DNA of 64,000 bases, from the NCBI RefSeq assembly GCF_011682145.1, contig NZ_WHJH01000002.1, positions 62,001 through 126,000 of the forward strand, written 5' to 3'. Below the pieces are notes generated by a model. It saw nothing but the letters and a program-made list of their open reading frames with translations. It had not been told where the DNA came from and searched no databases. Numbering within the stretch: position 1 is the first letter of the stretch; the number at the start of each line of letters is the position of its first letter. Positions 5,848 to 51,814 of this stretch are shown piece by piece. The position numbers and the translations under genes were made by a program. Source of the DNA: Massilia mucilaginosa. GTDB lineage: Bacteria > Pseudomonadota > Gammaproteobacteria > Burkholderiales > Burkholderiaceae_D.

Positions 5848-6096
5848 AACCGGGGTCAGAGCTCTGACTTGCAATTTTTTGCCGCATTTCATGAAATTTC
5901 TGACAACGGCGGTACTTCCGGCCAAATTCGTGGCAATTGCATCGGTTTGGCGGCATTTTTACCGAGTCGATGCGGATCTGTTTCGTACGTCGCAATAATC
6001 TTGAACAATCTTGCAAGTCAGAGCTCTGACCCCGGTTTAACAAGAGCTCTGACCCCGGTTTAACAATCTTGCAAGTCAGAGCTCTGACCCCGGTTT
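5848..6096. repeat. Palindromic REP-like repeat cluster I
   Basis: Four copies of a unit built on the perfect palindrome GTCAGAGCTCTGAC flanked by CCCCGGTT. Complete palindromes lie at 5855-5868, 6017-6030 and 6075-6088; a copy cut to AGAGCTCTGACCCCGGTT lies at about 6043-6060. The first copy is inverted relative to the others, and its TTGCAA flank is mirrored at 6011-6016, so 5848-6037 has terminal inverted repeats of about 27 bp around 135 bp of unique DNA. No ORF of note lies inside. This fills most of the 437-bp rpsI-argC gap. Confidence 0.85.
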
Positions 6097-43000: not shown

Positions 43001-44107
43001 ATGAAAACCAAGGCAGCGATTGCATGGAAGGCGGGCCAGCCGCTGACGATTGAAGAAGTCGACCTGGAAGGCCCGCGCGCGGGCGAGGTACTGGTCGAAA
43101 TCAAGGCCACCGGCATTTGCCACACCGATTACTACACCCTCTCCGGCGCCGATCCCGAAGGGATCTTCCCCTCCATCCTCGGGCACGAAGGCGCCGGCGT
43201 GGTGGTCGACGTCGGACCCGGCGTGACCAGCCTGCGCAAGGACGATCACGTCATCCCGCTGTACACCCCCGAATGCCGCCAGTGCAAATTCTGCCTGTCG
43301 CAGAAAACCAATCTGTGCCAGTCGATCCGCTCGACCCAGGGCCGCGGGCTGATGCCCGACGCGACCAGCCGCTTCTCGATCGACGGCAAGCCGATTTACC
43401 ACTACATGGGCACATCGACCTTCTCGAACTACATCGTGGTGCCCGAGATCGCGCTGGCCAAGGTGCGTTCCGACGCGCCGTTCGACAAGATCTGCTACAT
43501 CGGCTGCGGCGTGACCACCGGCGTGGGCGCGGTGCTGTTTACCGCCAAGGTGGAAGCGGGCGCCAACGTGGTGGTGTTCGGCCTGGGCGGCATCGGCCTG
43601 AACGTGATCCAGGCGGCCAAAATGGTCGGCGCCGACAAGATCATCGGCGTGGACCTGAACCCCGAGCGCGAAGCGATGGCGCGCAAGTTCGGCATGACCC
43701 ACTTCATCAACCCGTCCAAGGTGGAGAACGTGGTCGACACGATCATCGGGCTCACCGACGGCGGCTCCGACTACAGTTTCGAGTGCATCGGCAACGTGAC
43801 CACCATGCGCCAGTCGCTCGAATCGTCGCACAAGGGCTGGGGCCAGTCGATCATCATCGGCGTGGCGGCGGCGGGGCAGGAGATTTCGACCCGTCCGTTC
43901 CAGCTGGTCACCGGCCGCGTATGGAAAGGCTCCGCCTTCGGCGGCGCGCGCGGGCGCACCGACGTGCCGAAGATCGTCGACTGGTACATGGAAGGCAAGC
44001 TCAATATCGACGACCTGATCACGCACCGCCTGCCGCTCGAACGCATCAACGAAGGCTTCGACCTGATGAAGAGCGGCGAGTCGATCCGCTCGGTCGTGCT
44101 TTACTAA
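43001..44107 (+). CDS. frmA: S-(hydroxymethyl)glutathione dehydrogenase / class III alcohol dehydrogenase
   Basis: A 368-residue zinc alcohol dehydrogenase that oxidises the glutathione adduct of formaldehyde and also reduces S-nitrosoglutathione. Catalytic zinc ligands lie in TGICHTD and GHEGAGVV. The structural zinc site is CRQCKFCLSQKTNLC. The NAD site is VFGLGGIGLNVIQAAKM. Length is that of the class III family. An AGGGACAGG-type site precedes the ATG. No FrmR regulator or esterase gene is adjacent. Confidence 0.96.
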   Translation: MKTKAAIAWKAGQPLTIEEVDLEGPRAGEVLVEIKATGICHTDYYTLSGADPEGIFPSILGHEGAGVVVDVGPGVTSLRKDDHVIPLYTPECRQCKFCLSQKTNLCQSIRSTQGRGLMPDATSRFSIDGKPIYHYMGTSTFSNYIVVPEIALAKVRSDAPFDKICYIGCGVTTGVGAVLFTAKVEAGANVVVFGLGGIGLNVIQAAKMVGADKIIGVDLNPEREAMARKFGMTHFINPSKVENVVDTIIGLTDGGSDYSFECIGNVTTMRQSLESSHKGWGQSIIIGVAAAGQEISTRPFQLVTGRVWKGSAFGGARGRTDVPKIVDWYMEGKLNIDDLITHRLPLERINEGFDLMKSGESIRSVVLY

Positions 44108-44670: not shown

Positions 44671-44888
44671 CTCCCTAGTGAAATGTATGCCAGCAGGCAT
44701 TCTAACGGAGCTGCCGCCGCCGCTGAAAGGCAGCCCAGGCCGGACACCGTCGTGCGCAAGTCCGGGTTTGGGCATGATCAAAAACCGCGCCGTCGCGCCG
44801 ACCTATATTGAACTTCCCGGGGTGCCGTACGTCCTTAGCCAATTTGCAAGTGCACCCCCTGTAGTGCTTCGTCTTGTGGAGGTTTCAA

Positions 44889-45332
44889 ATGGATCCCAAA
44901 GTATTCCAGAGCCTGGTCGAAAAGGCCAAAGCCGATCCCGCATTTTTCCATCAGTTGATCTTTACGCCGGAAACCATCATCGCCCAGGTAAGCGATCTTG
45001 ACCGCCAGGCCAAAGGCGCGCTGGTGGGCCAGGATCCGGCTGGCCTGATCGCGCGCGCCGTCGGCATCTTGCGCGCTTGCGGAAATACCTGCTCCAGCAG
45101 CTGCGACAACACCTGCGGCGGCAGCTGCGGCTACACCACCAACCTGACCGCCGAGATGGCGGTCAGCACGCCCGCCGTCGATTACTTCTCGCGCGTGAGC
45201 GGCGCATTGCAACGCTGCGGCAATACCTGTTCTAGCAGCTGCGACAACACCTGCGGCGAAAGCTGCGGCTACACCACCAACTTTACCGACATGGGTAATG
45301 TGGTCATCAATCCGGCAGCCTGGAACCGCTAA
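44889..45332 (+). CDS. Putative RiPP precursor A with two Cys-every-fourth cores
   Basis: A 147-residue peptide. Residues 1-62 form a helical, cysteine-free leader (MDPKVFQSLVEKAKADP...). Two near-identical cores follow: Cys at 64, 68, 72, 76, 80 and again at 110, 114, 118, 122, 126, i.e. strict CxxxCxxxCxxxCxxxC blocks. The first core begins CGNTCSSSCDNTCGG and continues SCGYTTN. Every cysteine after the first in each core is preceded by Ser or Thr. A 29-residue linker separates the cores. GGAGG (44878-44882) lies 6 bp before the ATG at 44889. With the next peptide gene and the lanthionine synthetase it forms one operon. The function as a lanthipeptide precursor is inferred from this context; a Cys-rich metal-binding protein is the main alternative. 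Confidence 0.8.
   Translation: MDPKVFQSLVEKAKADPAFFHQLIFTPETIIAQVSDLDRQAKGALVGQDPAGLIARAVGILRACGNTCSSSCDNTCGGSCGYTTNLTAEMAVSTPAVDYFSRVSGALQRCGNTCSSSCDNTCGESCGYTTNFTDMGNVVINPAAWNR
45078..45281 (+). repeat. Duplicated core-encoding segment in precursor A
   Basis: Two direct repeats of 66 bp (45078-45143 and 45216-45281), 138 bp apart, encode the two CxxxC cores. They differ at only a few positions, some silent (for example GGA/GGC for glycine and TCC/TCT for serine), showing a duplication kept by selection at protein level. Confidence 0.85.
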
Positions 45333-45406
45333 GCGGCAAGGCGGCGCGCTGCTCCGCTGCGGCGCGTCGCTTCCCGGCCCCGCACCACCCGAACAAGGAG
45401 TCCGCC

Positions 45407-45781
45407 ATGGACAGAACGACCTTCGCCCGCCTGGTCGGCGAGCTGCGTGGCAACGCAGAATTGTTTCAGACCTTCCTCAGCGACCCGGCCGCCGCGCTGG
45501 CCACGCTGCCCTACCTCGATGACGCCACGCGGCGCGCGATGGGCGCCGTCGATCCGCGCGCCTTCATCGCCGACGCCAGCGCGCTGATGGAGCGCGACCG
45601 CGTGCTGCAAGCCTGCGGCCCCCGATACACCTGTTCCTGCACCTCGTACACCTGCGGCGGCGTCACTTGCGGCGGCTCGACCTGCGACGTCACCTGCACC
45701 GAGTTCAGTTGCGGCAATACCTGCGGCGACAGCTGCGGCTTCACCACCAACTTCGAATCGCGCTTCTTCGTCTGGAAATGA
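45407..45781 (+). CDS. Putative RiPP precursor B
   Basis: A 124-residue peptide. The leader (residues 1-69) has the same plan as precursor A: MDxxxFxxLV at the start, Phe20, and a VDP near residue 49 where A has QDP. The core (residues 70-124) holds ten cysteines at 70, 76, 78, 83, 88, 93, 97, 102, 106 and 110, mostly in TC or SC pairs, then a tail FTTNFESRFFVWK. Its last part (SCGNTCGDSCGFTTNF) matches the end of the A cores. AAGGAG lies before the ATG at 45407. Its stop overlaps the synthetase start as ATGA, so precursor and enzyme are translated together. Confidence 0.8.
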   Translation: MDRTTFARLVGELRGNAELFQTFLSDPAAALATLPYLDDATRRAMGAVDPRAFIADASALMERDRVLQACGPRYTCSCTSYTCGGVTCGGSTCDVTCTEFSCGNTCGDSCGFTTNFESRFFVWK

Positions 45782-48459
45782 GCCAAGCCATGAATCCATC
45801 ACCTGACAGCGCACTGCCGGACACCACTACCTACCACGACCATCTGCGTCAAGCGGGCTTCTCGCCCACGACCGGCGGCGTCTGGCTCAAGGCCGGCCGC
45901 AGCGAGCGCGTGCAAGGCTGGAAGCTGCACGTCTCGAGCGTGCCGGCCGAGGCGCACGCCCTGCTGGAGGCCATCCTTCCCGTCCTGCGCGCCAGCCAGG
46001 TGCCGTTCAAGATCGCCAGGGACGCCACCATCCTGGGACTGCTCAACGAAGGCGGCCTGGGCGCCACCCAGGTCGGCAAATTCTGCACCATCTACCCGGC
46101 CGACGACGCCGCCGCCAGCGCGCTCGCCGCGCAGCTGGTAGCGGCCACGCGGGGCTTCAACGGCCCCGTGATCACGTCCGACATGGCGCTCGGGAACCTG
46201 GTGTACGCGCGCTACGGCGGCTTCAACACCATCGTCGAGCGCGACCTGCTCGGCCAGCACCATCTGTACATCCGCGACGGCGCGGGAGAACTCATTGCCG
46301 ACGCCTACACCCAGCCTTTCGTGGCGCCGTCGTTCGCCGCGTGCCCGTTCGACGGCGTACCCGCCACCGCCGCGCGCCGCGCCGGCGGTCCCGCCACCTT
46401 CGGCCCCGGCTATGTGCTGGTGGACGTCATCAAGCAGCATGCCAAGGGCAATGTCTACCTGGCGATCCTGGCCAGCTCGCAGGACAGCGTGGCCGCACGG
46501 GTGATCAAGGAAGGGCGCAAGCACTGCCTGTCCGACATCCACGGGCGCGACATCCGGGTGCGCCTGCGGCGCCAGGGCGAAATCCACGCGCGCCTCGAAG
46601 GCCTGGTGCCGGTGCCGGCGTGCGATCCGTACTTCGAGGTCGAGGGCGACGGCTATCTGCCGATGGCGTACCTGGCGGGCGCCGACCTCGAAAGCGTGGT
46701 CCAGGCGACCCTGAAACGCGGCCCCTGGAGCGCGGCCGGCCGCGCCGGACAACTGCGCCTGCTGGGCGCGCTGCGCCAGCTGACCGGCGCCGTGCAGCGG
46801 CTGCACGGCGCCGGCTTCGTGCACCGCGACCTGAGCGTGTCGAACGTCTGGCTCGGGGACGACGGCAACACCTGGCTGCTCGACCTGGAGATCGCGCAGC
46901 ATGTGGGCGACCCCAGTCCCGTGTTCGGCAAGGGCACGCCGGGCTTCATGGCGCCGGAACAGGAAGCCGGCGCCGCGCCCACCTTCGCCCAGGACATCCA
47001 TGCGGTGGCGGCGCTGATCCTGTTCGCCCTGACCGGCCTCGATCCGCGCCGCACCCTGTTCGCGCGCGCCGACTCGCGCGCGCGCAACGTGCGCCACCTG
47101 GCCGCGTCGGTGCCCGATGCGCTTCTGGACGTGGTGCTGGCCGGGGTGGACGACGACCCACTGGCGCGGCCCGCGCTGGCCGCCATCGGGCAGCAGCTGG
47201 CGGCGTACGAGGCCGGCCTGCGCGCAGGCTGCGCGCCCGGCGCCACGCCGCCGGCCGCGCCCATCGACTTTGCAGCCTGCGCGCACGCTGCGGGCCTCGG
47301 CCTGCTGCATCACGCGTTTCGCGACCCGCACTCGGGACTGTGGCTGTCGGCGGGCATCGCGAATGCGGGCGGCGGCCAGGAACAGGCCTCATCGTACGAA
47401 CTGCGGCGCGGCGCCAATCGCGGCGTGGCGGGCGTGGTGTACGCGCTGGCGCGCCTGCAACGCGCCGGCATCGCGCTCGGCGACGCCGCGCCTGCGCTCG
47501 GACAGGCGGTCGACTGGCTGCTGTCGGACGCCGTCACGCCCGACCGCGGCATGCCGGGCCTGCACTTCGGCGACGCCGGCGTGGCCGTTGGCATCGCCGA
47601 AGCCGTGTGCGCCGGACTGGTGCCGGCCACGCCGCGCATCGGCGAGCTGATCGAGCGCGTGTTCGCTGCGCCCATCACCTGGCCCGACCTCACGCACGGC
47701 GCGGCGGGCCAGGGCCTGGCCGCCATGATGTGCGCCGACAGCCTGGGCACGCACGCGCCGCTGGCCATGGCGCAGCGCTGCGCGCGCTACCTGGCCGAGA
47801 CCCAGGCGCCCGATGGCTCCTGGGTCATGCCCGACGGCGTGCCCGGCATGTCCGGCGAAACCCTGAGCGGCTTCGCCCACGGCGTGGCCGGCATGGTGTT
47901 TTTCCTGCTTGAGCATGGCGCCCGCTTCAATGACCGCACCAGCGGCGCCAGTGCCGCGCGCGGCCTGCGCTGGCTCGAAGGGCATGCCTTGCCGGTGGAC
48001 GGCACGGCGGCGCTGCAGTGGCACTACAGCGACCGCCAGGGCGCCGTGTGGAACTGGTGGTGCCACGGCGCGCCGGGCATCGCGCTGACGTTTCTGCGCG
48101 CCTACCGGCATACCAGGGACCCCGCCATGGCGCTGCTGGCGCGGCGCGCGCTGGACGCCGTCGATCCCCATCTGCGCGCACCGAACCTGACCATCTGCCA
48201 CGGCCTGGCCGGGATCGGCGAGATCTTGCTGGAGGCGGCGCAGACGCTGGGCGAGCCGGCCTGGCGCGACAAGGCGGCCACCCTGGCCGGCACCATCGTG
48301 CATCTGGGGCATCGCTGCGCCGACGGCAGCCTGGTGTGGCTGGCCGAAGATCCGGTGGCGCCGACCGCCGACCTGATGGTCGGCATGGGCGGCGTCGCGC
48401 ACTTCCTGGCGCGCCTGGGCGAGGGCGGCCCGGCGCTCGGTTTTCCACTGCTGCCATAG
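45778..48459 (+). CDS. Three-domain lanthionine synthetase (LanKC/LanL-like)
   Basis: An 893-residue enzyme. Residues about 20-200 resemble the phospho-Ser/Thr lyase domain, with the expected Lys/His/Arg sites: K49 and H51 (GWKLHVSS), K78 (FKIARD), K101 (GKFCTIYP) and R145 (YARYGGF). A protein kinase domain follows: K244 (RVIKEG), HRDLSVSN at 349-356, and DLE (369-371) in place of DFG. Residues about 500-893 are a LanC-like cyclase with repeated GVAG/HGxAG helices and intact zinc ligands C762 (WWCHG) and C807-H808 (ICHGLAG). Zinc ligands are kept in class IV (LanL) and lost in class III (LanKC). It should phosphorylate Ser/Thr, eliminate phosphate, and add cysteine. Start at 45778 overlaps precursor B. 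Confidence 0.88.
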   Translation: MSQAMNPSPDSALPDTTTYHDHLRQAGFSPTTGGVWLKAGRSERVQGWKLHVSSVPAEAHALLEAILPVLRASQVPFKIARDATILGLLNEGGLGATQVGKFCTIYPADDAAASALAAQLVAATRGFNGPVITSDMALGNLVYARYGGFNTIVERDLLGQHHLYIRDGAGELIADAYTQPFVAPSFAACPFDGVPATAARRAGGPATFGPGYVLVDVIKQHAKGNVYLAILASSQDSVAARVIKEGRKHCLSDIHGRDIRVRLRRQGEIHARLEGLVPVPACDPYFEVEGDGYLPMAYLAGADLESVVQATLKRGPWSAAGRAGQLRLLGALRQLTGAVQRLHGAGFVHRDLSVSNVWLGDDGNTWLLDLEIAQHVGDPSPVFGKGTPGFMAPEQEAGAAPTFAQDIHAVAALILFALTGLDPRRTLFARADSRARNVRHLAASVPDALLDVVLAGVDDDPLARPALAAIGQQLAAYEAGLRAGCAPGATPPAAPIDFAACAHAAGLGLLHHAFRDPHSGLWLSAGIANAGGGQEQASSYELRRGANRGVAGVVYALARLQRAGIALGDAAPALGQAVDWLLSDAVTPDRGMPGLHFGDAGVAVGIAEAVCAGLVPATPRIGELIERVFAAPITWPDLTHGAAGQGLAAMMCADSLGTHAPLAMAQRCARYLAETQAPDGSWVMPDGVPGMSGETLSGFAHGVAGMVFFLLEHGARFNDRTSGASAARGLRWLEGHALPVDGTAALQWHYSDRQGAVWNWWCHGAPGIALTFLRAYRHTRDPAMALLARRALDAVDPHLRAPNLTICHGLAGIGEILLEAAQTLGEPAWRDKAATLAGTIVHLGHRCADGSLVWLAEDPVAPTADLMVGMGGVAHFLARLGEGGPALGFPLLP

Positions 48460-48465
48460 CCCCTT

Positions 48466-48487
48466 GCAAGCCGGCTTGCCGGCTTGC
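48466..48487 (+). terminator. Hairpin after the lanthionine synthetase gene
   Basis: GCAAGCCGGC (48466-48475) and GCCGGCTTGC (48478-48487) form a perfect stem with a tight centre, 6 bp after the stop. It is a likely end of the three-gene operon, although no T-run follows. Confidence 0.55.
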
Positions 48488-48638
48488 GTTGCATCCGATG
48501 CGCGCGCCAGTCGCGCATTCCGGTCGCCTGTTCCTCCAAATCGACCGCCCATCGCCCCTCGCTGGAACGCGCTTGCCCTCCCGTCTACAGTTATGCTCAG
48601 CGAGGCCGCGCCAGCGCGCCGCCAAGTAGAAAAATAGT

Positions 48639-48694: not shown

Positions 48695-48718
48695 ATGCAC
48701 GCAGGAACCCATCCATGA
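48695..48718 (+). CDS. Possible 7-codon leader ORF coupled to the M56 gene
   Basis: ATG at 48695, preceded by GGAGAG, opens a seven-residue frame (MHAGTHP) whose TGA stop overlaps the ATG of the M56 gene (ATGA at 48715-48718). It occupies the place where a coupled upstream cistron (normally blaI in this family) would end. It may set translation of the next gene, or be chance. Confidence 0.3.
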   Translation: MHAGTHP

Positions 48719-50649
48719 ACGACATGCTCGCCGTCATCGTGCCCAGCCTGGGCTGGGCGCTGCTCGATTTTGTGTGGCAGGGCGTGCTGGTCGGCTGCCT
48801 GGCCGCGCTGGTCATGGGCCTGCTGCGCGGCGCGCGTCCGCAGCTGCGCTACGCCGCCGGCTGCGGCGCGCTGCTGCTGTGCGCCGCCTTGCCGCTGGCC
48901 GGCACGGTGCAGCGCGTGCTCGATGCGCAGGCCGCAGCCACCACGATGTTGCCGCTGGCCGCGATCGGCATGCCGGCCGGCGCGGCCGGCGCCCCGATGC
49001 TGGCCGCGCAGCTGGCCAGCTGGGAACCGCTCTTGCAGCAGCGCCTGCCGTTGCTGATGTTTTTCTGGAGCTGCGGCGCCGGCCTGCTGGCGCTGCGCCT
49101 GATGCTCGGGCTGGCGTGGGTGCGGCGCCGCAGCCAGCCGGGCCGCTACCTGCACGATGCCGCCTGGCAGGCGCGGGTGGACCGGCTGGCGCTGCGCTTC
49201 GGCGTGGCGCGCCAGGTCGCACTGGGGCTGGTGCATGACTTGCCCAGTCCCGTCACGGCCGGCTGGTGGCGCCCGGTGATCCTGGTGCCGGCGTCGCTGG
49301 TCACGGGCATGCCGCCCGACCTGCTCGAAGCCCTGCTGGCCCACGAAATGGCGCATATCAAGCGCTTCGATTACCTGGTCAACCTGATCCAGAGCGCGAT
49401 CGAAATCGTGCTGTTCTATCACCCGGCGGTGTGGTGGCTGTCGCACCGGGTGCGGATCGAGCGCGAACAGATTGCGGATGATTTAGCAGCAAGCATGCTC
49501 GGCGAACCGCGGCGTCTGGCGCTTGCATTATCCGAACTGGACCAGTTCCAGTTCTCCACACCTCAACTCGCCCATGGGGCTCACGGAGGAAATCTTATGT
49601 CCCGCATCAAACGCCTGGTCCGCCCGGATACCGAACCACTGAACTGGAAGATGGCGCTGCCGATTCTCGGCCTGTCGGCCGCCTGCGCCGCGTTCTACGC
49701 CAACGCGCAGAGCGTGCCTTTGCCCGCCGCCAAAACAGCGCGCGCCGTCAGCGCGCCGCCGGTGCCGCCCGCGCCGCCTGCTCCGCCCGCCGCCGGCGCC
49801 ATGCCGGCCGCGCCGATGACGGTGGCGGCGCTGGCACCGGTAGCGCCGGTGCCGCCCGCGCCGCCGGCGCCGCCGCGCCCAGCCGTAAGCATCACCAAAG
49901 GCGCCGGCGAGATGTCGTATGCGCTGGTGCAGGGGCCGGAACGCAAAGGCATGTTAAGTGGCGACAGCCGCGATATCGACGACATCGCCGCCGCCAGGCA
50001 CGCCGTCGCCGGGGACTTCTTGTGGTTCCGCCAGGGCGGCACGGCCTACGTCGTGCAGGACCCGGCCCTGGTGGCGAAGGCGAGCGAAGCCTACGCGCCG
50101 CTCAAGCGCCTCGGCGAACGGATGGAAGTCCATGGCAAGGAGATGGAAAAGCACGGCAAGGTGGTCGAGCAGCTGGGCCGCGAAATGGAACGCAAGGCCG
50201 GCGCCAGCCAGCCGGAGCATGCCGAGACGCAGCGCATCGCCGGCCTGGTCGCGGCGCTGTCGGCCCAGCAGGCGCGCCTGCAGCGCGAGATCGTGCAGCT
50301 CGAACGCCGGATCGACGACGCCGGCGGCGCCGCGCGGGCGCAGTTGTCGGGCCAGCGCGACCAGCTCAACGTCAAGCTGGGCGACATCGAACGCCAGCTC
50401 GACGTGCAGCACGCGCAGCTCGAGCGCCAGCACGGCAGGATCGAGCAGGCGCGCGCGCCGCTCGACGCCATCGGCGAGCGGATGAAGGAAGCCGGCAAGC
50501 CGATGGACGCGCTGGGCAAACAGATGAACGTGCTGGGGCGCGAGATGGACCAGCACAGCAAGGTGGCCGAGCGGGTCATGCGCGAGGTGCTGCGCGACGC
50601 CGTCGCGCGCGGCCTGGCACGGCCCGTGCCCGGGCAGCGCGCGCCCTGA
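48715..50649 (+). CDS. BlaR1-like M56 family membrane metallopeptidase
   Basis: A 644-residue protein. Four membrane helices lie in the first 330 residues. The zinc peptidase motif HEMAH is near residue 210 (ALLAHEMAHIKRFDYLVN), and the third-ligand region is EREQIADDLAA. A Pro/Ala-rich linker (about residues 345-395, PPAPPAPP runs) leads to a periplasmic part. It ends in a long charged coiled coil (about residues 455-620, with LGERMEVHGKEMEKHGK-type heptads). BlaR1/MecR1 relatives sense beta-lactams and cleave a repressor; this protein has no penicillin-binding domain, and no BlaI gene is adjacent. The signal sensed is unknown. Confidence 0.85.
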   Translation: MNDMLAVIVPSLGWALLDFVWQGVLVGCLAALVMGLLRGARPQLRYAAGCGALLLCAALPLAGTVQRVLDAQAAATTMLPLAAIGMPAGAAGAPMLAAQLASWEPLLQQRLPLLMFFWSCGAGLLALRLMLGLAWVRRRSQPGRYLHDAAWQARVDRLALRFGVARQVALGLVHDLPSPVTAGWWRPVILVPASLVTGMPPDLLEALLAHEMAHIKRFDYLVNLIQSAIEIVLFYHPAVWWLSHRVRIEREQIADDLAASMLGEPRRLALALSELDQFQFSTPQLAHGAHGGNLMSRIKRLVRPDTEPLNWKMALPILGLSAACAAFYANAQSVPLPAAKTARAVSAPPVPPAPPAPPAAGAMPAAPMTVAALAPVAPVPPAPPAPPRPAVSITKGAGEMSYALVQGPERKGMLSGDSRDIDDIAAARHAVAGDFLWFRQGGTAYVVQDPALVAKASEAYAPLKRLGERMEVHGKEMEKHGKVVEQLGREMERKAGASQPEHAETQRIAGLVAALSAQQARLQREIVQLERRIDDAGGAARAQLSGQRDQLNVKLGDIERQLDVQHAQLERQHGRIEQARAPLDAIGERMKEAGKPMDALGKQMNVLGREMDQHSKVAERVMREVLRDAVARGLARPVPGQRAP

Positions 50650-50776: not shown

Positions 50777-51178
50777 ATGAAAACAACTTTACGCGCAGGC
50801 GTGGCGGCGATGGCTGTCCTGTTCTGCGCCCACGCGCATGCCGCTCCGGTGGACATCAAGGGACGCTGGGTAGTCGACACCGCGCCGATGCTGGCCCAGG
50901 CCAAGACCATGAAACAAGCGGAAAAATGGATTGCGAGCATCAAGAAAACCTACACGGGGGGCTTGATGGTGATCGATGCCAACACCATGAAAATGTCGAT
51001 CATCGGCTTGTCCGGCGACCCGGTGCTTTATCAGTACAAGATCGCTTCCGCCAAGGACAACTGCGTGAGCATCGTGCTCGGCCCCGCACCGCAACCGATC
51101 CGCTTCTGCATCAGCGGCGAGGTCCTGTCGATCATCGATCCCACGACGCCGCTGATCGTGACCCACCGGCGTCAATAA
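50777..51178 (+). CDS. Secreted protein of unknown function, paralogue 1
   Basis: A 133-residue protein with signal peptide MKTTLRAGVAAMAVLFCAHAHA. The mature part (PVDIKGRWVVDTAPMLAQAK...) has a lipocalin-like opening (GRWVVD) and two cysteines (KDNCVSIV, IRFCISGE) that probably bridge. It is similar throughout to the next gene. No family is recognised. The ATG at 50777 follows AGGGAACCA. Confidence 0.65.
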   Translation: MKTTLRAGVAAMAVLFCAHAHAAPVDIKGRWVVDTAPMLAQAKTMKQAEKWIASIKKTYTGGLMVIDANTMKMSIIGLSGDPVLYQYKIASAKDNCVSIVLGPAPQPIRFCISGEVLSIIDPTTPLIVTHRRQ

Positions 51179-51304
51179 CACGCTTGGGGCAAGGCCCGGC
51201 TTGTCCTTGTTAACTTAATTACATGTTTATTGTGCAATGGTTTAGAATCACGCTTCGGCTCGTATCGGAAGCGTTACCACCATCGGCTCACCGTAAAGGA
51301 AAAC

Positions 51305-51814
51305 ATGAACAAAGCTCTACACGCTGGTTTTGCGGCGCTTGCCGTGCTGTGCGCCGCCCAGTCGCGGGCCGCCCCGCTTGACATCGAGGGGCGCTGGGTC
51401 ATCGACCTGCCGCCCATGGTCGCGCAGGCCAAGGCCATGAAGGGCGGCGCCAAGGAGATTGCCAATCTCGAGCGCACCTTCAAGGGCGGCGTGATGGTGA
51501 TCGATGCCAAAACTGTGAGCCTGTCGCTTGCCGGTGGCGAGGGCGAGCCGCTCAGCTATCCCTACAAGATCGCCGCCGCCGATCCGAACAAGCCGCAGTG
51601 CGTCAACTTGCTGATGGCTGCCTTGCCCAAGCCGCTGGCGTATTGCGTCAACGATGGCGTGCTGTCGGTCAACGACCCGACCAGCGCGCTGGTGTCGACC
51701 TATCGCCGCGCCGGGCCGGACCAGGCCAAGGACGCGGCCAAGGCCGAGGCCAAGGCCCAGGCCAAGGCCGAGGCCGACACCGACACCGCGGCCAAACCGG
51801 AAGCCGGCGCCTGA
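51305..51814 (+). CDS. Secreted protein of unknown function, paralogue 2
   Basis: A 169-residue paralogue of the previous gene: signal peptide (HAGFAALAVLCAAQSRA), PLDIEGRWVIDLPPMVAQAKAMK, and the same two cysteines (KPQCVNLL, LAYCVNDG). It differs by a C-terminal tail of about 40 residues made of KAEAK-like units (AKAEAKAQAKAEADTDTAAKPE), a likely unstructured or coiled extension. The ATG at 51305 follows AAAGGAAAAC. The 126-bp gap between the two suggests a tandem duplication, perhaps with separate promoters. Confidence 0.65.
   Translation: MNKALHAGFAALAVLCAAQSRAAPLDIEGRWVIDLPPMVAQAKAMKGGAKEIANLERTFKGGVMVIDAKTVSLSLAGGEGEPLSYPYKIAAADPNKPQCVNLLMAALPKPLAYCVNDGVLSVNDPTSALVSTYRRAGPDQAKDAAKAEAKAQAKAEADTDTAAKPEAGA

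Follow-up and report, generated by a model that had tools for sequence, protein, structure and literature searches.

What is made by a locus in Massilia mucilaginosa that sets two genes for Cys-rich peptides directly before a lanthionine synthetase gene, and how would the Cys residues be paired? The locus occupies positions 44889–48459 of a 64,000-nucleotide stretch of contig NZ_WHJH01000002.1 (the window, in whose coordinates positions are given unless another locus is named) and comprises three genes, all on the forward strand, for peptide A, peptide B and the synthetase. An initial annotation had proposed a lanthipeptide-type system with Cys-dense cores. Residues in all three domains of the synthetase, the co-occurrence of peptides and synthetase in 6 of 17 genomes and a relative in an alphaproteobacterium support that proposal, and the unit is very probably a minimal lanthipeptide pathway that would form thioethers, with a thioether as its likely product.

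Organization of the gene unit

Re-reading of the gene calls returned exactly the coordinates first annotated, together with the 4-base ATGA overlap that joins the peptide B stop to the synthetase start. Peptide A (147 residues, 44889–45332) is a double-core precursor with a 48% identical homologue in Haematobacter. It is divided into a 63-residue leader (44889–45077), weakly NHLP-like in profile searches, core 1 (45078–45143), a variable linker (45144–45215), core 2 (45216–45281) and a C-terminal tail (45282–45329), the last defined by alignment and by pN/pS (the ratio of nonsynonymous to synonymous change). Peptide B (124 residues, 45407–45781, from its reading frame and alignment) carries one long core (45614–45751), and the synthetase (893 residues) follows at 45778–48459. 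The count of ten Cys per peptide in the initial annotation is right for both A and B. Likely ribosome-binding sites, read from the sequence, precede peptide A (GGAGG, 44878–44882) and peptide B (AAGGAG, 45395–45400), and GTGGAGGTTYCAA lies upstream of peptide A, the same in all six Massilia loci. The three-gene order, which the annotation had suggested looking for in relatives, is present at each of these loci (the window, L015–L018 and L039); in Massilia atriviolacea, for instance, the peptide B gene (L018:5627-6013) overlaps the synthetase start at 6010. Promoter and terminator scans gave 1 and 2 hits, against 0.2 and 2.1 in shuffled sequences, respectively, and a hairpin between A and B is no stronger than in shuffles. 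A strong hairpin directly after the synthetase stop (48455–48500, z = −3.3 against shuffles) is perhaps a terminator without a T run.

Domains and class of the synthetase

The annotated lyase-kinase-cyclase architecture was borne out by Pfam, with RamC_N (135 bits), Pkinase (44.7 bits) and LANC_like (93.1 bits) all above cut-off. The phospho-Ser/Thr lyase (45850–46383), kinase (46444–47049) and LanC-like cyclase (47644–48426) domains follow one another in a single chain, an order also found in LanL enzymes. K49, H51, K78, K101 and R145 are present in the lyase domain and K244, H349-R350-D351, N356 and D369 in the kinase domain; the cyclase domain has the zinc ligands C762 (48061–48063), C807 and H808 (both 48196–48201), placed by alignment and a residue table. 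The five lyase residues, K244, D351, N356 and D369, and the three zinc ligands are invariant across the six Massilia synthetases and that of Haematobacter; their catalytic roles are assigned by analogy with the known families. The best structural relative is the solved chain 8car, named a serine/threonine protein kinase, which matches residues 32–883 with E = 2.2e-51. In the window's own genome (7.7 Mb, 416 contigs) there is one such synthetase, and three other matches are confined to the kinase region (E = 1.5e-9 to 1.1e-5).

The search against the LanKC and LanL families that the annotation had recommended placed the enzyme closest, by profile score, to class IV LanL (NF038150, 518 bits), with class III second (NF038151, 328 bits); the synthetase of a Rhodococcus plasmid scores 489.9 bits on NF038150. 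Of 14 synthetases tabulated, those with the zinc ligands are three Massilia enzymes, Haematobacter, Rhodococcus, two annotated class IV LanLs (which share the Cys at 762), Embleya and S. clavuligerus; the ligands are absent from four annotated class III rows and from Lacticaseibacillus, and a Salipiger record lacks the cyclase domain. PMC7268733 describes class III cyclases as having no zinc-binding residues. Because the zinc ligands are present, assignment of the synthetase as class IV-type rather than class III is well supported at the level of sequence, and class III membership (LanKC) was rejected, with 328 of 575 bits on NF038151. Class V was rejected as well, given that Pfam recognizes RamC_N, kinase and LanC domains and not LanK and LanY, the domains named for class V in PMC10604976.

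A tree, rooted for drawing only, groups the Massilia and Haematobacter synthetases at 100/100 and adds Rhodococcus, which has a long branch, at 99/98. The class IV rows stand next to this group, on a joint branch of 92/93 that is not starred, and class III is set apart at 95/96. Tree and residue table took in three of the six Massilia synthetases and 11 of the 75 matching plasmid records. The Massilia-type enzymes thus appear as a group of their own beside the annotated LanLs. Separately, the Massilia aquatica synthetase (L015) has the motif TVCHRLAG, in which Arg stands in place of the Gly that follows the zinc-binding His; none of the other five Massilia synthetases shows this change.

Cores of the two peptides

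All ten Cys of peptide A fall inside its two cores, each of 22 residues with five Cys-x-x-[Ser/Thr] units. Core 1 reads CGNT CSSS CDNT CGGS CGYT TN and core 2 CGNT CSSS CDNT CGES CGYT TN; divided into fours, both run Cys-x-x-Thr, Cys-x-Ser-Ser, Cys-x-x-Thr, Cys-x-x-Ser, Cys-Gly-Tyr-Thr and end in Thr-Asn. The strict every-fourth-residue Cys first described therefore holds in A, twice over, but not in B, where the steps are uneven. The Haematobacter precursor (146 residues) likewise carries two cores, which have the same sequence (CDVT CTSS CGAT CAQS CGYT TN). In each window A core, Ser/Thr stands at +3 of all five Cys; for the composition observed, P is about 0.009 per core, and ten of ten across both cores was reached by 2 of 5000 shuffles. 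In the alignment of 14 A-type cores (two each from the six Massilia loci and Haematobacter), every Cys column is invariant and so are all five +3 Ser/Thr columns, compared with one of five at +1 and two of five at +2, so that seven of the ten intervening columns vary.

This pattern bears on the simplest alternative, in which the peptides work through free thiols, disulfides or bound metal and the synthetase has another substrate or only phosphorylates them. A CxxxC ladder does place thiols near one another, ribosomal peptides that chelate metals have been described (the bufferins, PMC12452194), and the model for Cxxx-repeat radical-SAM targets, TIGR04114, weakly matches all seven A-type precursors (best 14.2 bits, cut-off 20). 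Against it, Ser/Thr is kept at +3 along with the Cys while most intervening columns vary, and the lyase and cyclase residues are kept too. Moreover, no peptide match without a synthetase match was found in 17 genomes of the genus or in a 398-genome sample of the phylum, the initial annotation having named such solitary peptides as a pattern that would refute it. We consider this alternative improbable. Membership among the Cxxx-repeat radical-SAM targets themselves was rejected at 14.2 bits against the cut-off of 20.

In peptide B the Cys-to-Cys steps are 6, 2, 5, 5, 5, 4, 5, 4 and 4; Ser/Thr stands at +3 for six of the ten Cys and immediately before nine of the nine non-first Cys. Its last five modules, CDVT CTEFS CGNT CGDS CGFT TN, resemble an A-type core with one inserted residue. 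The B core also contains TCSCTSYTC, and Ser/Thr-Cys pairs resemble thiopeptide-like cores. Conversion of the Cys to thiazolines or thiazoles by an unlinked YcaO enzyme, with the synthetase making dehydro residues only, was accordingly considered; three YcaO matches over cut-off do exist elsewhere in the genome (G000:C33:122307-123269, C155:59928-60935 and C288:66848-67840). A scan of small Cys-rich frames around these three loci gave no clear precursor. The six flanking proteins scanned include no YcaO family match, none is annotated in the Haematobacter stretch, and the zinc ligands of the cyclase are kept; we consider the YcaO route very unlikely indeed. As a separate observation, genome G192 of the same genus encodes a fused double B (L039:5002-5754), a single frame that holds two leader-core units; of its two cores, the first has diverged and has five Cys, each with Ser/Thr at +3 or +4.

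Proposed reactions and ring partners

The reactions of the pathway can be proposed by analogy with the known families. The synthetase would bind the long leader of peptide A or B and phosphorylate Ser/Thr of the core; the lyase domain would remove the phosphate to give dehydroalanine or dehydrobutyrine, to which the zinc-dependent cyclase would add Cys thiols. Each A core would become five short, adjacent, non-overlapping (methyl)lanthionine rings and the B core a longer run of rings of mixed size, with leader removal and export provided by genes elsewhere in the genome.

Ring partners and direction are predicted from the residue pattern. Possible partners were counted for the 30 Cys of five core examples: core 1 and core 2 of window A, the Haematobacter core, the window B core and, from the fused B of G192, its diverged first core. 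For 29 of these Cys a Ser/Thr lies two or more residues downstream, ahead of the following Cys; for 8 of the 30, one lies two or more residues upstream with no other Cys in between. Because of this imbalance, we favor side-by-side rings in which Cys joins a downstream Ser/Thr. The specific map, with each Cys joining the Ser/Thr three residues downstream, is plausible from the pattern but falls just short of an even chance. A class IV lanthipeptide with non-overlapping rings was reportedly described by Ren et al. in 2020, as the title of that paper has it.

Several observations weigh against the proposed pathway and its ring map. The column test is modest (P = 0.019 for all five +3 columns falling within the 8 that are invariant, out of 15 without Cys), and the cores, being related, are not independent; the variation on which the test draws comes almost entirely from the single difference between Massilia and Haematobacter, with just two core positions varying within Massilia. 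The synthetase scores 518 bits against the curated LanL cut-off of 650 (NF038150), and that of Haematobacter, at 551.2 bits, also lies under it. The leaders are long, unlike the short ones of classes III and IV. Scans of six flanking proteins recognized no leader protease, peptide exporter or immunity protein, the sole flanking peptidase being the product of the downstream M56 gene, which is also present at a site without the unit; the gene table for Haematobacter, which is incomplete, likewise shows none of the three. Within the cores, one Cys of B (in its CSC step) lies in a module that offers it no partner at a workable distance. The rule that A (8/8), B (9/9) and Haematobacter (8/8) have in common is Ser/Thr at −1 of Cys.

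That last observation leads to the main alternative, a variant within the same lanthipeptide pathway in which the Ser/Thr just before a Cys joins a later Cys, so that the rings run in the canonical direction and interlock. In most characterized lanthipeptides, Ser/Thr is N-terminal to its Cys partner. Every non-first Cys in A, B and Haematobacter is immediately preceded by Ser/Thr, and position −5 of Cys is Ser/Thr in 6/6 cases in A and in Haematobacter. The −1 rule is equivalent to the +3 rule in A but not in B, and overlapping rings therefore stay in contention. Under this arrangement, however, the first Cys of each core would have nothing close by to pair with, and the invariant Thr pair at the end would go unused. 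In the first core of the G192 double, which has diverged, one non-first Cys follows Gly, yet all five Cys have a downstream Ser/Thr. We regard overlapping rings as a possibility to be taken seriously, though on balance doubtful. Returning to side-by-side rings, the fullest form of that reading makes peptide A the precursor of a thioether ladder: ten equal four-residue rings in two blocks of five, closed in the Cys-to-downstream direction by a class IV-type enzyme of a beta- and alphaproteobacterial lineage, with long NHLP-like leaders and repeated cores. We put this combined description forward tentatively, as less likely than not.

Sequence constraint and leaders

Pairwise pN/pS values, calculated as uncorrected proportions from the six Massilia loci (five for B, G192 with its fused double gene being left out), were used to compare the parts of the unit. 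In peptide A they are 0.246 for the leader, 0.000 for core 1, 0.575 for the linker, 0.062 for core 2 and 0.477 for the tail; in peptide B, 0.447 for the leader, 0.112 for the core and 1.461 for the tail, which is nine codons long; and in the synthetase, 0.331. The A cores thus have the lowest pN/pS of the whole unit. These cores are lower in synonymous change as well, at 0.270 and 0.203 compared with 0.415 for the A leader.

The relatedness of the A and B leaders, also part of the initial annotation, was recovered by hhalign with 95.1% probability (E = 3.2e-8) over 61 columns. No ALQxL-type motif of class IV leaders is conserved in the leader alignments of A or B, the window precursors being 147 and 124 residues long. 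Against NHLP-clan models (E up to 10), NH_RiPP_Os17 weakly matches six of the seven A-type precursors and leader_NHLP three of seven, and the window B peptide has no match among the NCBIfam models at E up to 1. The best NHLP-type match is that of the Massilia frigida B peptide (20.2 bits, E = 4.7e-4), under the NF038399 cut-off of 40, and TIGR03793 reaches 14.5 bits against a cut-off of 50.9. The likeness to the NHLP clan is weak and is best treated as a lead, not as membership.

Distribution and genomic context

Searches for the synthetase and for the peptides (with the A-type model) matched an identical set of six among 17 genomes of the genus: M. aquatica, M. rubra, M. frigida, M. atriviolacea, the window's genome and G192, with M. 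aquatica the closest named relative by synthetase (91%). The carrier search across genome contigs used exact peptide words of the window synthetase, which distant relatives would escape. The window's own genome was the sole match in the 398-genome phylum sample, with the LanL model (1e-40) or the precursor model (1e-3), and the sole synthetase match at 1e-60 in a 399-genome sample of the order. In a 392-genome sample of the family, peptide B matched eight genomes, six of them of the genus; the other two matches were set aside as chance, one (G095, 8.1e-4) because it overlies a 974-residue frame on the opposite strand and has an inner stop, the other (G162, 9.7e-4) because no precursor-like frame lies nearby.

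Outside the genus, the search of 72,556 plasmid records found the pair only on a plasmid of the alphaproteobacterium Haematobacter massiliensis OT1, which carries an A-type precursor (48% identical) adjoining a synthetase 41% identical to that of the window over 878 positions. A plasmid search with the Haematobacter precursor returned only itself, and viral contigs searched with the synthetase and with the precursor alignment held no relative. No match was found in 315 genomes of one family of the phylum, presumed to be Rhodobacteraceae, an empty answer that is uninformative for this search.

Two further plasmid loci were noted. Rhodococcus oxybenzonivorans plasmid pRB98 encodes the long-branched class IV-type synthetase (L056:2860-5469) that the tree places with those of Massilia; upstream of it (L056:1829-2236) is an unrelated 135-residue protein with a Cys-rich end (CCCSSCCFTC...), perhaps a second long-precursor system. 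A plasmid of Salipiger sp. CCB-MM3 encodes a 523-residue lyase-kinase protein without a cyclase domain (L065:2836-4407) beside a 91-residue peptide with a three-Cys, Thr-rich C-terminus (L065:2431-2706) and a methyltransferase gene; this pair may make dehydro-rich peptides.

At all six Massilia loci the unit is flanked by an alcohol-dehydrogenase-type gene on one side (43001–44107) and an M56 peptidase gene on the other (48715–50649), with a DUF4240 gene also between them at four of the six. The product of the former has the Pfam domains ADH_N and ADH_zinc_N and is presumably an S-(hydroxymethyl)glutathione dehydrogenase. Flanks were examined in 5 of the 11 non-carriers: in G148 the same two genes stand about 320 bases apart, forming an empty site, and the other four have the dehydrogenase but no close M56 gene (G094 has one at 27%). 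The unit was therefore gained or lost as one block at a single site, in either direction. For a class III case, PMC10604976 places the leader protease outside the cluster. After the M56 gene, the window encodes two small proteins with signal-like starts that are alike by eye (50777–51178 and 51230–51814), and related copies occur at several other Massilia loci.

Comparison with known systems

Two statements of the initial annotation about the wider field need adjusting. It knew of no described lanthipeptide with strict CxxxCxxxCxxxCxxxC cores, but a conserved CxxxCxxxC motif has already been published for actinobacteria, in a clade close to the class I nisin group (PMC11251773). It also held three-domain synthetases to be mainly actinobacterial and firmicute; they are indeed rare elsewhere, but the restriction is not absolute, since Myxococcus fulvus and Chondromyces crocatus, both listed as Pseudomonadota in PMC9576775, are sources of class III and IV products that have been made in Escherichia coli. 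Among the titles and abstract openings of the open-access literature, no paper treats a lanthipeptide of Massilia or Haematobacter; open-access papers that mention lanthipeptides together with Massilia name the genus once or twice, and none mentions them together with Haematobacter. Precursors in the present group are 124 to 250 residues long. One large survey discarded reading frames above 120 residues (PMC7268733) and another contained precursors of 29 to 100 residues (PMC11251773); because of these length limits, we infer that such surveys overlooked this group, a blind spot for long precursors. The repeated Cys-x-x-Ser/Thr core, present twice per precursor and nearly frozen in evolution, would show cleanly, in a natural system, how a three-domain synthetase proceeds along repeats and selects the partners for each ring. 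With this unit, beta- and alphaproteobacteria gain representatives next to the class IV enzymes.

Among known systems, the Haematobacter massiliensis pOT1-4 locus resembles the window in that a double-core A-type precursor (48%) immediately precedes a synthetase of 41% identity, the two annotated as 'hypothetical protein' and 'lanthionine synthetase LanC family protein'. It differs in having no annotated B peptide, a 77-base gap, a plasmid location and other neighbors. NHLP-type leaders give weak profile matches at the leader position of A and B, but the scores are under cut-off and window A, window B and Haematobacter have no Gly-Gly in their leaders; such leaders mostly occur with enzymes of other kinds. 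Cxxx-repeat radical-SAM targets (TIGR04114, TIGR04117) also have Cys at every fourth residue, but the matches are under cut-off, and no radical-SAM family is found in the six flanking proteins scanned or in the Haematobacter annotation. Class III LanKC enzymes have the same three domains, but their four annotated rows are without zinc ligands and form a separate tree group. Class IV LanL enzymes match in lyase-kinase-LanC order, in the zinc ligands Cys and Cys-His, in top profile score and, it seems, in their neighboring position in the tree. The differences lie in the precursors (124 and 147 residues with leaders of 63–69 residues in the window, compared with two annotated 39-residue precursors for a Kitasatospora LanL) and in the scores, 518 bits for Massilia and 551 for Haematobacter against a cut-off of 650, in keeping with a separate group beside the annotated LanLs. 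To judge from its sequence, the unit appears to join known enzyme chemistry to an unusual lineage and an unusual substrate.

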